Of a DNA stretch of 64,000 nucleotides, positions 6,712-10,114 are shown in pieces (positions within the stretch are counted from its first letter, which is position 1; every line of letters starts with the position of its first letter). Under the pieces are notes generated by a model. That model searched no databases. It saw only the letters and a list, made by a program, of their open reading frames with translations, and had not been told where the DNA came from. Source of the stretch: Siphonodentalium dalli (lineage: Eukaryota; Mollusca; Scaphopoda; Gadilida; Siphonodentaliidae); NCBI GenBank assembly GCA_032622095.1, contig CP136065.1, forward strand, positions 207,058,151 through 207,122,150, written 5' to 3'. The position numbers and the translations under genes are program-made.

Positions 6712-6727
6712 GGCCCTGAAAAGGGCC
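6712..6727 (-). terminator. Histone-type 3' stem-loop after the OTU-like gene
   Basis: Read on the minus strand this is GGCCCTTTTCAGGGCC, a 6-bp stem with a TTTC loop. It is preceded by AAAAC and followed by ACCA, matching the metazoan histone mRNA 3' element. It starts 20 nt after the minus-strand stop codon and is in sense orientation. A purine-rich AAAAGAAAAA stretch lies a short way downstream, where the U7-pairing element would be expected. Confidence 0.8.
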
Positions 6728-6746
6728 GTTTTATTTTTGTTATAGT

Positions 6747-7211
6747 TTAGAATCCGCCACATTGAACTTCTTTGTTCGCCAAAACTTCAATTGATTTGTC
6801 TCCTCGCCTCATCCATATTTCGCATTCACAATAATGCTCGTGGCAAACGTGTGGGATCCACACTAGAGTTATTGATGACTTGAATCTTGGTGTTGATTTG
6901 TAGCCGCCTTTGGTAGCATCAAACATGACGATAGGTCGCTGTATAACAGTCGCCGCTAATTCAACCATCAATCTTGATTCAGCCAAAAGTGGTGTGCGCC
7001 GTAAATCTTGTGCCGACGCACCAAGTTCGTCACTCTCTGCGTAGTACAGGTCAAATGCCGCATCTCTCAGAATCATCCATCCATCGGTCGTCCCGTAAAC
7101 CCCGAGGCTGAGTGCCCTCCAAAACAGCGATATTTCTTCACCGTACACTGCTTTACAGTATACCCCACCGGCCATTATCTCGTCAAGATCTGTTATGTTT
7201 ACAGCAGTCAT
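6747..7211 (-). CDS. OTU-like protein, 154 aa, active-site Cys replaced by Ser
   Basis: Residues 24-56 read 'GEEISLFWRALSLGVYGTTDGWMILRDAAFDLY', here cited by parts: the 'SLFWRALSLGVYG' block and the following 'ILRDAAFDLY' helix match the start of OTU deubiquitinase domains. In OTU domains the first residue of this block is normally the catalytic Cys (C-L-F-R-A). Here it is Ser28. A later 'QRPIVMFDA' strand (about 91-99) and a 'CHEHY' motif (about 123-127, candidate His) fit the OTU order. The start at 7211 is chosen because its context, CATCTTTGAATG on the + strand, recurs exactly at the start of the 62-aa gene at 8820. It is transcribed divergently from the 162-aa gene from promoter block A and ends in a histone-type stem-loop. 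It may be a ubiquitin-binding pseudoenzyme or a distant family with a Ser; assignment is by motif order only. Confidence 0.5.
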   Translation of the reverse strand: MTAVNITDLDEIMAGGVYCKAVYGEEISLFWRALSLGVYGTTDGWMILRDAAFDLYYAESDELGASAQDLRRTPLLAESRLMVELAATVIQRPIVMFDATKGGYKSTPRFKSSITLVWIPHVCHEHYCECEIWMRRGDKSIEVLANKEVQCGGF

Positions 7212-7799
7212 CTTTGAATGTAGAATAAGTCTGAAGATCCGTCTTGAACATATATCACGATTGCGCGGGCGGTAGAGAAAGCACATAATACTTTGACGTT
7301 AAAAATGACAAATGCTCCCTGACGTTGTGTTTCTTTTCAGTGCATTATCTGTTAGTTTCACCATTTCGATATGATATAGATTAAATTCATGATAGTATAT
7401 GCAATTAATTAAGATATTTTAACATATGAATTCATCTTCGTTCATAAACGATGACCAAGTAAAGTTATCAATTGTAATGATGAAGAAAAATGTTCAGTAT
7501 GTTTTCTTGTGTTCAGTTTTATGTATAAAATATGTACATTTCCAAAACCAAAAACTAGAAAAACATTCCATATTTGCCTAACGAGGTAACAAATATATCA
7601 ATCATGTGTACCAAATAATAGATAATGATCTAACGAAATAAAAAACATTTGTTTGATCGCTATGCAATAATGATCAAGAAAAATATGAATGCTGATCCGT
7701 CTCTGAAAAAACACAACGCCAGGAAACATTTGTCAATTTTAACGTCAAAGTATTATGTGATTTCATTGACGCCCGTGTCAAATGTATAAAAATATTTTC
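7209..7799. promoter_or_regulatory. Bidirectional promoter block, copy A
   Basis: About 590 bp between the starts of two divergent genes, nearly identical to copy B (8818-9391). On the + strand it ends with GTATAAAAATATTTTC, a TATA box about 55 nt before the 162-aa start codon. On the minus strand a conserved GATATATG lies about 40-50 nt before the 154-aa start. Several other AT-rich blocks are conserved between copies, including TTATGTATAAAATATGTAC near 7520. Confidence 0.75.
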
Positions 7800-7835
7800 G
7801 AATTTGATCAACGTTACATTGCATTGCTATCAAAG

Positions 7836-8324
7836 ATGGATCCGTTAACAGAATTTCTTCAGAGTGAGATATACAGTAATCCTGTTGTACAGAATACATA
7901 TGCGGCACCAGAGTCAACAGGCCAAGCTAATACGACAATGACTATAGGTGGTGATACACTCATTTTAAAAGCGATTTTAGATGAACTGAGATGTCTTCGC
8001 AGGGATATTGACGTGAAAACACAAGTAACGCATCAAGAAGTAAAAGTGAATCTTCGTTTCGTTGCAGAAGAGATAGATATACCAATCAGGGTTCATGATG
8101 TTCAGAGATCGAAAGAACAGAAACAGATCAAAAAAGAAAAAATATTGGCGGCGAAAGAAAAAGAACCTAAAAGTATCATGAAGCCTTCTACTGAGACAAA
8201 AGTCAGATTTCGTCTTCCTTGTAAAGAATCTAAAGATACAGAGAAAAGTGATGAATTCGCAAAAGCTATTGGTTCTCATGGGAAAGATATGTCAAGATAT
8301 AAGAAAAACACAAAACGATGTTAA
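7836..8324 (+). CDS. Charged protein of unknown function, 162 aa
   Basis: I do not recognise the family. The N-terminal half contains a hydrophobic/charged helix-like segment ('LILKAILDELRCLRRDID', about residues 46-63). The C-terminal half is very Lys/Glu-rich and likely disordered or coiled coil, and the end is basic ('SRYKKNTKRC'). A longer frame could start at 7782, but that ATG lies inside the TATA box (ATGTATAAAAATA), so the mRNA must begin downstream and 7836 is the first usable ATG. It is divergent from the OTU-like gene and is followed after 22 nt by a histone-type stem-loop. Presumably an accessory or regulatory protein of the Polinton. Confidence 0.6.
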   Translation: MDPLTEFLQSEIYSNPVVQNTYAAPESTGQANTTMTIGGDTLILKAILDELRCLRRDIDVKTQVTHQEVKVNLRFVAEEIDIPIRVHDVQRSKEQKQIKKEKILAAKEKEPKSIMKPSTETKVRFRLPCKESKDTEKSDEFAKAIGSHGKDMSRYKKNTKRC

Positions 8325-8346
8325 AGTCAGATGATAATTTTAAAAC

Positions 8347-8362
8347 GGCCCTTTTCAGGGCC
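8347..8362 (+). terminator. Histone-type 3' stem-loop after the 162-aa gene
   Basis: GGCCCTTTTCAGGGCC preceded by AAAAC and followed by ACACA, starting 22 nt past the stop codon in sense orientation. The downstream block (CCCAAAAGGTTACTCTTTCAT, 8373-8393) is conserved after the stem-loop at 10099. From there to about 8470 the sequence matches the corresponding region after 10114, including a decayed copy of the minus-strand poly(A) region. Confidence 0.8.
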
Positions 8363-8574
8363 ACACACATTTCCCAAAAGGTTACTCTTTCATTGCTGAA
8401 AAAATCAAAAACACTATTGTTCAATTTATATTTTATTCAACAACAAATATTTGCAAGTATATTTTGTTTTAAATTATTCGTGGCGTGATTTTTTCAAAAC
8501 AAAACATAGGGTACAAAGAACATTATTAGTTCTTAAGCAATGCTAAAAGTTTTTCTTTTTGAAAAAATTGGTTT

Positions 8575-8618: not shown

Positions 8619-8631
8619 GTTTTGTATGGCA

Positions 8632-8820
8632 TCAAAGTTCACGCCACGATTTTCTTTTGAGACTTTTGCTTTTGTTCCAACGCTGTTGTTTTTTGCATAT
8701 TTGCATAACCAGTTTTGCACTGGCGGTTACTTCTTTTGCGTGTCCGGCCCGCATTATCTGGGGCGTTAGCCCTATCGTTCCTCTTAGTATAGACATCAAC
8801 GGTTCGGGGATTTCGGACAT
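8632..8820 (-). CDS. Small basic protein of unknown function, 62 aa
   Basis: No family recognised. The protein is basic, with a Lys/Arg-rich C-terminal third ('KSKSLKRKSW'), so nucleic-acid binding is possible. The case for a real gene rests on context. Its ATG sits at exactly the position and in the same sequence context as the OTU-like gene start, at the minus-strand side of the duplicated promoter block, and it is followed by two sense-oriented histone-type stem-loops. An overlapping minus-strand frame (8639-8848) lacks an ATG at its start and is less likely. Confidence 0.5.
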   Translation of the reverse strand: MSEIPEPLMSILRGTIGLTPQIMRAGHAKEVTASAKLVMQICKKQQRWNKSKSLKRKSWREL

Positions 8821-9391
8821 CTTTGAATGCAGAATAAAAATTGTTCACGGCCGTGTTTGAACATATATCACGATTGCGCGGGCGGTAGAGAAATCACATG
8901 TCACGTTGGCATTAAAAATGACAAATGTTTCCGGGCGTTGTGTTTCTTTACAGTGCATTATCTGTTAGTTTTACTATTTCGATATGTTATAGATTAAATT
9001 CATGATAGTATATGCAATTAATTAAGATGTTTTAACATATGAATTCATCTTCGTTCATAAACGATGACCAAGTAAAGTTATCAATTGTAATGATGAAGAA
9101 AAATGTTCAGTATGTTTCTTGTGTTCAGTTTTTATGTATAAAATATGTACAATTCCAAAACCAAAAACTAGAAAAACATTCCATATTTGCCTAACGAGGT
9201 AATAAATATATCAATCATGTGTACCAAATAATAGATAATGATCTAACGAAATTAAAAACATTTGTTTGATCGCTATGCAATAATGATCAAGAAAAATATG
9301 CATGTTGATCCGGTTCTGAAAAAACACCATGTCAGGAAATATTTGTCAATTTTAACGCCAAAGTATTATGTGATTTAATTGACGCCCGTGT
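8818..9391. promoter_or_regulatory. Bidirectional promoter block, copy B
   Basis: Near-identical duplicate of 7209-7799. The first 50 bp next to the 62-aa gene differ most. Its + end breaks off after GACGCCCGTGT and is immediately followed by partial copy C, so the functional + strand TATA box is the one in copy C. Confidence 0.75.
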
Positions 9392-9396
9392 AACAA

Positions 9397-9691
9397 TCTT
9401 GTGTTCAGTTTTATGTATAAAATATGTACAATTCCAAAAACAAAAACTAGAAAAACATTCCATATTTGCCTAACGAGGTAATAAATATATCAATCATGTG
9501 TACCAAATAATAGATAATGATCTAACGAAATTAAAAACATTTGTTTGATCGCTATGCAATAATGATCAAGAAAAATATGCATGTTGATCCGGTTCTGAAA
9601 AAACACAACGTCAGGAAATATTTGTCAATTTTAACGCCAACGCGACATGTGATTTCATTGACGCCCGTGTCAAATGTATAAAAATATTTTC
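9397..9691 (+). promoter_or_regulatory. Partial third promoter copy C with TATA box
   Basis: A tandem duplicate of the last 275 bp of copy B, beginning at TCTTGTGTTCAG and ending with GTATAAAAATATTTTC (TATA near 9677-9684). That is about 35 nt before the 120-aa start codon, the geometry expected of a TATA promoter with a very short leader. Confidence 0.7.
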
Positions 9692-9716
9692 ACTCTTTCA
9701 GTGAACTTCATTCATT

Positions 9717-10079
9717 ATGCCGTCGTTAAAGAAATTTATCAAGAAGTTATGGAGGAAGAGAGATTCAGAGGAGACGAAAATAAGAACATATAGGAAATGG
9801 CAGGATTCTCCTGAACAAAAGGTGGTACAGAAACAGATGCTAAGAGATTTTCTGGCTCGGCGACGACCATCGCCTGAAGTATGCGATCAAGCAATCAAGA
9901 ATCAAGAATCAAGCAATCTTGATCTCGTGGAGATCTTGTCACAGATCTCGAAGAAAGATCTGTGCAATGCAGCAATTGACAGCTTCGCTCAGGCTGCTGC
10001 GGCGCACAGATCAAATCCTACTTGGTCTGTGACAATTAATCCCAACGGGATATATCCTGATTTGGCAGAATTTTTATGA
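9717..10079 (+). CDS. Protein of unknown function with basic N-terminus, 120 aa
   Basis: The first 35 residues are strongly basic ('SLKKFIKKLWRKRD', then 'KIRTYRKW'), followed by an acidic/neutral helical region and 'NPNGIYPDLAEF' at the end. No family recognised. It lies directly behind the TATA box of promoter copy C and ends 19 nt before a histone-type stem-loop. It occupies the same cassette position as the 162-aa gene but is not similar to it. Confidence 0.6.
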   Translation: MPSLKKFIKKLWRKRDSEETKIRTYRKWQDSPEQKVVQKQMLRDFLARRRPSPEVCDQAIKNQESSNLDLVEILSQISKKDLCNAAIDSFAQAAAAHRSNPTWSVTINPNGIYPDLAEFL

Positions 10080-10098
10080 ATTCTGGAAAAGAAAAAAC

Positions 10099-10114
10099 GG
10101 CCCTTTTCAGGGCC
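10099..10114 (+). terminator. Histone-type 3' stem-loop after the 120-aa gene
   Basis: GGCCCTTTTCAGGGCC preceded by AAAAAAC and followed directly by ACCCAC. This is the closest match of the five to the animal histone consensus, in which cleavage follows ACCCA a few bases past the stem. It lies 19 nt after the stop codon. Confidence 0.85.

Follow-up and report, generated by a model that had tools for sequence, protein, structure and literature searches.

Here, we describe a Polinton from the genome of the scaphopod mollusk Siphonodentalium dalli. It lies in a 64,000-nt stretch of contig CP136065.1 (hereafter, the window) and carries four accessory genes, each of which is followed, in sense orientation, by a stem-loop (SL) of the type that ends replication-dependent histone mRNAs. 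The element is assigned to the Polintons because it has inverted terminal repeats, a 6-bp target duplication (TACATT), PolB, integrase, ATPase, and protease. Specifically, its gene set consists of PolB, an rve integrase with a sub-threshold chromodomain, an A32-like ATPase, and an adenovirus-type protease, the last matched at 20.2 bits, just under the cut-off of 21.3. Terminal repeats, a 6-bp target duplication, and these four genes are shared with Polinton/Maverick elements and with adintoviruses. Two features set the present element apart from both: the four accessory genes have histone-type 3' ends, and accessory genes 1 and 4, the two that were searched, have no database relatives. Coordinates are collected in Table 1.

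Table 1. Positions, within the window, of the Polinton and of the features discussed here (aa, amino acids)
Feature	Positions	Strand	Remarks
Polinton element	6380..23613		17.2 kb; terminal repeats, target duplication, PolB, integrase, ATPase, protease
Inverted terminal repeats	6380..6640 and 23345..23613		
Target duplication	6374..6379 and 23614..23619		6 bp, TACATT
Accessory gene 1	6747..7211	-	154 aa
Accessory gene 2	7836..8324	+	162 aa
Accessory gene 3	8632..8820	-	62 aa
Accessory gene 4	9717..10079	+	120 aa
Gene 1 SL	6712..6727	-	19 nt past stop; Rfam 41.8 bits
Gene 2 SL	8347..8362	+	22 nt past stop; Rfam 40.1 bits
Gene 3 SL, proximal tandem copy	8603..8618	-	13 nt past stop; Rfam 22.2 bits, below gathering score
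Gene 3 SL, distal tandem copy	8575..8590	-	41 nt past stop; Rfam 31.1 bits, below gathering score
Gene 4 SL	10099..10114	+	19 nt past stop; Rfam 40.2 bits
Gene 1 downstream elements	6678..6699	-	purine element 6690-6699 (from +13); ATTGCT box 6678-6683
Gene 2 downstream elements	8376..8397	+	purine element 8376-8381 (from +14); ATTGCT box 8392-8397
Gene 3 downstream elements (distal SL)	8536..8560	-	purine element 8551-8560 (from +15); ATTGCT box 8536-8541
Gene 4 downstream elements	10128..10149	+	purine element 10128-10133 (from +14); ATAGCT box 10144-10149
Divergent intergenic region, genes 1/2	7212..7835		presumed shared promoter
Divergent intergenic region, genes 3/4	8821..9716		

Stem-loops and downstream elements at the accessory-gene ends

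Genes 1, 2, and 4 each have one SL, and gene 3 has a tandem pair. A first-pass annotation of this DNA had reported five copies of the motif, lying in sense 13 to 22 nt (the distal copy about 40 nt) past four stop codons. When the letters were rechecked, all five were found at the positions reported, with 0 mismatches, and the measured gaps are 13 to 22 nt and 41 nt. Three further matches in the window each carry 3 mismatches, and 3.02 matches are expected by chance at up to 3 mismatches. Neither the motif scan nor Rfam revealed any SL in the window beyond the five. Three of these exceed the gathering score of the Rfam family Histone3 (RF00032; 34 bits), with E values of 6e-9 to 2.5e-8, and both tandem SLs of gene 3 fall below it. 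Folded in isolation, every copy forms a 6-bp stem capped by a 4-nt UUUC loop (z scores of -3.0 to -4.0).

The sequences adjoining the SLs were compared with the claims of the first pass, which had also reported ACCA- or ACCCA-like flanks. These are present at three SLs, as ACCA, ACACA, and ACCCA, but not at the tandem pair: the distal copy has a purine element and carries AAACCA in place of ACCCA, while the proximal copy, 12 nt upstream of its partner, has neither an ACCCA nor a purine element of its own. In the distal copy, one base pair is altered on both sides, from C-G to U-A. The stem does remain paired, as was claimed, but the supposed two compensatory changes affect one base pair and represent a single event, which is weak evidence by itself.

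Downstream, a purine run begins at +13 to +15 past four of the five window SLs, the exception being the proximal tandem copy of gene 3. When the window is pooled with 11 further copies of the element (see below), a purine run occupies this position at 39 of 51 SLs, compared with 3.3% of composition shuffles. Ten of the remaining SLs lie upstream of a tandem partner, to which the next purine run, from +41 to +43, belongs; two SLs have none. Likewise, 39 of the 51 SLs are followed by a TWGCT box between +28 and +35 (composition shuffles, 1.8%). We note that an ATTGCT-like box (ATAGCT in gene 4), at roughly +29 to +39 past the SL, is common to the element and to the histone genes of the host.

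The core genes had been said to lack the SL and to use AATAAA instead. Two genes agree with this description: AATAAA lies 16 nt past the zinc-knuckle gene, and another, at 23229-23234, lies about 250 nt past the last core gene. As a general rule it does not hold, as AATAAA or ATTAAA occurs within 250 nt of only 5 of the 13 non-accessory open reading frames (ORFs), and accessory gene 1 has an AATAAA as well. Regarding the other accessory genes, a poly(A) hexamer lies 195 nt downstream of gene 3, and neither AATAAA nor ATTAAA is present within 250 nt downstream of genes 2 and 4.

Host histone genes and copies of the element

The 2.23-Gb host genome was searched for Histone3, SLBP, and U7. At least 75 Histone3 matches were scored, from 409,530 candidates; the three strong SLs of the window are not among them, so the genome counts are lower bounds. 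Sixty-three of the 75 fall in three regions (40 on C5 at 111.4-111.7 Mb, 10 on C8 at 156.3 Mb, and 13 on C8 at 156.9 Mb), and the other 12 are spread over 11 stretches, all of them copies of the window Polinton. Four stretches from the three regions encode, according to Pfam, H2A (Histone_H2A_C) and a core histone, the latter H2B by eye, together with a protein of histone fold, taken by eye for H4; no H3 was present among the genes read in these four stretches. At 8 of 8 distinct host histone 3' ends read, GGCCCTTTTCAGGGCC is preceded by AAAC and followed by ACCC or ACCA, a purine run starts at +14, and TTGCT lies at +32 to +36. The host genome also encodes the SLBP RNA-binding domain (PF15247, 60.6 and 31.4 bits, on C2). 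Five weak U7 candidates (E up to 10) were read and were not convincing.

Direct comparison of window positions 6380-10200 with the four histone stretches (blastn) gave 86.7% identity over 60 nt for the best match (E 8.7e-12). Among the matches listed, all but one cover an SL; the exception, 33 nt long, falls within the promoter duplication (E 0.025). It was the only sign that a promoter might have been captured from the histone genes, and that idea was rejected. Beyond the cleavage flank, the next 50 nt at the SLs at 8590 and 6727 are closer to host sequence than 500 of 500 and 499 of 500 shuffles, respectively, and the 50 nt downstream of the SL at 8618, which include its tandem partner, are closer than 496 of 500.

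By its gene-1 matches, the Polinton family is young and very numerous. At least 150 such matches exist in the genome (150 scored, from 645 candidates), with identities of 92-100%, and 142 of the 150 have no inner stop. The 11 Polinton stretches mentioned above were located by their Histone3 matches, which means that every one of them had to contain an SL. Selection was blind to the SL in two other samples, namely 20 copies picked via the capsid-type gene (of 82 rows) and the 40 lowest-scoring gene-1 rows (of 150). In the first sample, the exact motif is present in 14 of the 14 stretches that cover an SL site; the other six comprise three without similarity, two in PolB, and one covering the promoter and other parts. 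In the second, the motif is unchanged in 38 rows, and the loop carries a T to C change in one and a T to G change in one. Differences were counted over 10 aligned rows per site, with one stretch supplying two rows at the gene-4 site. They number 8/800 in the SL and 0/250 in the five bases before it, compared with 167/5064 upstream and 85/3461 far downstream. One copy (L030) has its gene-3 3' end duplicated together with the tandem SL pair, giving five SLs in 1.2 kb.

The first-pass proposal that the element took over a histone 3'-end signal is well supported by these comparisons: the host histone genes have the same SL, flanks, purine-element spacing, and TTGCT box, the host has an SLBP domain, and the SL is kept in copies sampled independently of it.

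Accessory proteins, intergenic regions, and core genes

The accessory genes are coding, with pooled pN/pS (ratio of nonsynonymous to synonymous differences) against the window copy of 0.43 for gene 1, 0.55 for gene 2, 0.57 for gene 3, and 0.30 for gene 4; tails that are frame-shifted or replaced contribute to the values for genes 2 and 3. Six comparisons with very unequal frame lengths were excluded (one for gene 1, one for gene 2, and four for gene 4), and copies in which no identifying tag was found were not counted. Pfam, at E up to 1, assigned none of the four proteins to any family, histone or other, and a PHROG search of them gave matches only at E > 0.2. Gene 1 matched nothing of note in the PDB (best E 0.048, ribosomal protein L3), and its single-sequence fold was of no use (predicted local distance difference test score, pLDDT, of 35). 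By eye, a stretch of gene 1, SLFWRALSLGVYGTTD, is reminiscent of an OTU-type protease in which another residue stands in place of the catalytic cysteine; neither Pfam nor the PDB gave this candidate any support.

The four accessory proteins seem, by eye, unrelated to one another. The sequence at 7244-7778, between genes 1 and 2, recurs at 8857-9391 with 94% identity across 536 nt. Genes 2 and 4 also resemble each other in their 3' regions, at 91% across 105 nt. Both intergenic copies contain TTGCGCGGGCGG (7261-7272 and 8874-8885), about 50 nt upstream of the gene 1 and gene 3 starts, which we take to bear a faint resemblance to an E2F site.

Regarding the core genes, the labels double jelly-roll major capsid and penton are our assumption from gene order. 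Relatives of the capsid-type protein are uncharacterized proteins, and there was no PDB match of note. Among 120 of its 640 relatives, the named species are the bivalves Mercenaria, Ostrea, Saccostrea, and Crassostrea, and one bacterial metagenome-assembled genome, Candidatus Thiodiazotropha, is included. The capsid-type ORF (20393-22057) spans 554 aa, its relatives span about 430 aa, and many genome copies match it from about residue 103, in a frame of 436 aa; an upstream ORF may have become fused to it, accounting for the first approximately 118 residues. A search of the viral contig collection gave no match for the capsid-type protein, for its 22-row alignment, or for PolB. A search for relatives among broader genome contigs returned two short contigs, neither of which has a Histone3 match, and no relatives of the Polinton were found among phage records.

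Two structural observations complete the description. A 213-nt inverted duplication (10688-10900 and 10908-11120, 94%) causes the zinc-knuckle gene (minus strand) and PolB (plus strand) to share their first approximately 40 residues, and the two genes are read divergently from a 7-nt spacer. The terminal repeats (6380-6570 and 23418-23613) consist of short units in both orientations that are able to self-fold; Rfam returned only sub-threshold microRNA matches for them.

Proposed histone 3'-end processing, its alternatives, and its meaning

Passages of PMC7026596 and PMC6303110 describe the histone pathway as follows: the SL is bound by SLBP, and U7 RNA base-pairs through its 5' end with the purine element farther downstream. 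Cleavage takes place at a fixed distance from the purine element, mainly 5 nt past the SL at ACCCA. The order and spacing of the RNA parts at the element's gene ends match this pathway. With the 3' end of replication-dependent histone mRNAs (RF00032), the element shares the SL sequence, the flanks, and the purine element and its spacing; with replication-dependent histone genes, it shares short intron-free ORFs, and its 3' ends closely resemble the histone 3' ends of its own host. Unlike histone genes, the element's genes are part of a mobile element, and their products match no Pfam histone; for these genes, histone-type processing is a prediction.

We consider it highly probable that the element carries a captured histone 3'-processing module, and we predict that the transcripts of all four accessory genes are cut by host SLBP/U7 after the SL and are not polyadenylated. 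Specifically, host SLBP would bind the element's SL, U7 would pair with the purine element, and CPSF73 would cut about 5 nt past the SL. By virtue of these three steps, the mRNAs would behave like histone mRNAs. The SLs likely let the element's messages end without a poly(A) tail, and these messages are perhaps made mainly during DNA copying. Production and translation would then be concentrated in S phase, when the DNA element meets replicating cells. We are evenly divided on the larger proposition that such non-histone mRNAs, ending in an SL without poly(A), hijack SLBP and U7 in a manner that times accessory-gene expression to S phase and places them in competition with histone mRNAs. As for its origin, the module would derive from a host histone 3' end and not from a whole histone gene. 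One or two captured ends may have been copied to all four gene ends through duplications inside the element. The likeness between the two intergenic regions, and between genes 2 and 4 in their 3' regions, fits such a route, as do proteins that look unrelated.

Several observations weigh against the capture of a working module. The 50 nt downstream of the gene 2 and gene 4 SLs (8347 and 10099) are not closer to host sequence, being equaled by 144 and 122 of 500 shuffles. A U7 RNA search of the host genome gave no match at E 0.001, as was also the case for the controls. In gene 1, AATAAA lies between the stop and the SL. The purine-element region, with 26/650 differences among copies, is no better kept than its surroundings, and, of the eight SL differences, four break a pair (the other four keep a G-U pair). 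Retention of the SL is, by itself, weak support: the copies are young, and their counts are not independent because they share ancestry. Finally, all SL-bearing copies examined come from one host genome. A mixed mode, in which poly(A) serves as a fallback, is possible.

Other explanations draw on the same facts. The hairpin transcripts could act mainly as a decoy, soaking up host SLBP/U7 such that less histone is made and the element's DNA stays free of chromatin, with processing of the element's own mRNAs secondary. The abundance of copies, judged by the gene-1 matches scored, and the double SL at gene 3 would suit such a role, but a sponge would need neither an SL 13-41 nt past a stop nor a downstream element at processing spacing, and the accessory genes are kept as coding; we regard the decoy as improbable. 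Similarly slim is the chance that histone 3' ends were captured by accident and persist by descent, with the mRNAs polyadenylated at ordinary signals. The AATAAA in the gene-1 3' untranslated region, the hexamer past gene 3, the youth of the copies, whose retention of the SL is partly descent, and the unexceptional conservation of the purine element are all consistent with a passenger. The presence of the module in sense at four different gene ends argues otherwise, as do the lack of hexamers near genes 2 and 4, the scarcity of SL changes relative to the surroundings, and the spacing that is kept despite diverged downstream sequences. Lastly, although the element is rich in inverted repeats, hairpins arising by chance or from repeats, with no histone link, are close to untenable given the Rfam E value of 6e-9, the sense placement at four gene ends, the host-like flanks and spacing, and the fact that a near-identical SL pattern matched the viral contigs just once, at 19.8 bits, in a contig with phage-type genes. 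Another SL pattern scanned over the viral contigs gave 0 matches.

The survey section of PMC12220804 counts six Rfam histone 3' untranslated region stem-loops in Polinton-like viruses and virophages, none of them in cryptophyte elements. That section offers the count, whereas here gene position, orientation, the downstream element, and comparison with the host are added. Passages of PMC11071296 on adomaviruses mention histone-like proteins and not histone 3' ends. Beyond the stem-loop count in PMC12220804, our search of the open-licence literature yielded no account of viral or transposon genes with histone 3' ends.

If the capture that we favor is real, a mobile element of an animal in which four genes other than histone genes bear the host histone signal would constitute an exception to a rule. 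Such an element would also offer a natural means of testing the requirements of SLBP/U7 processing. Finally, it would represent a case in which a virus-like element ties the expression of its genes to host DNA replication via RNA 3' processing.

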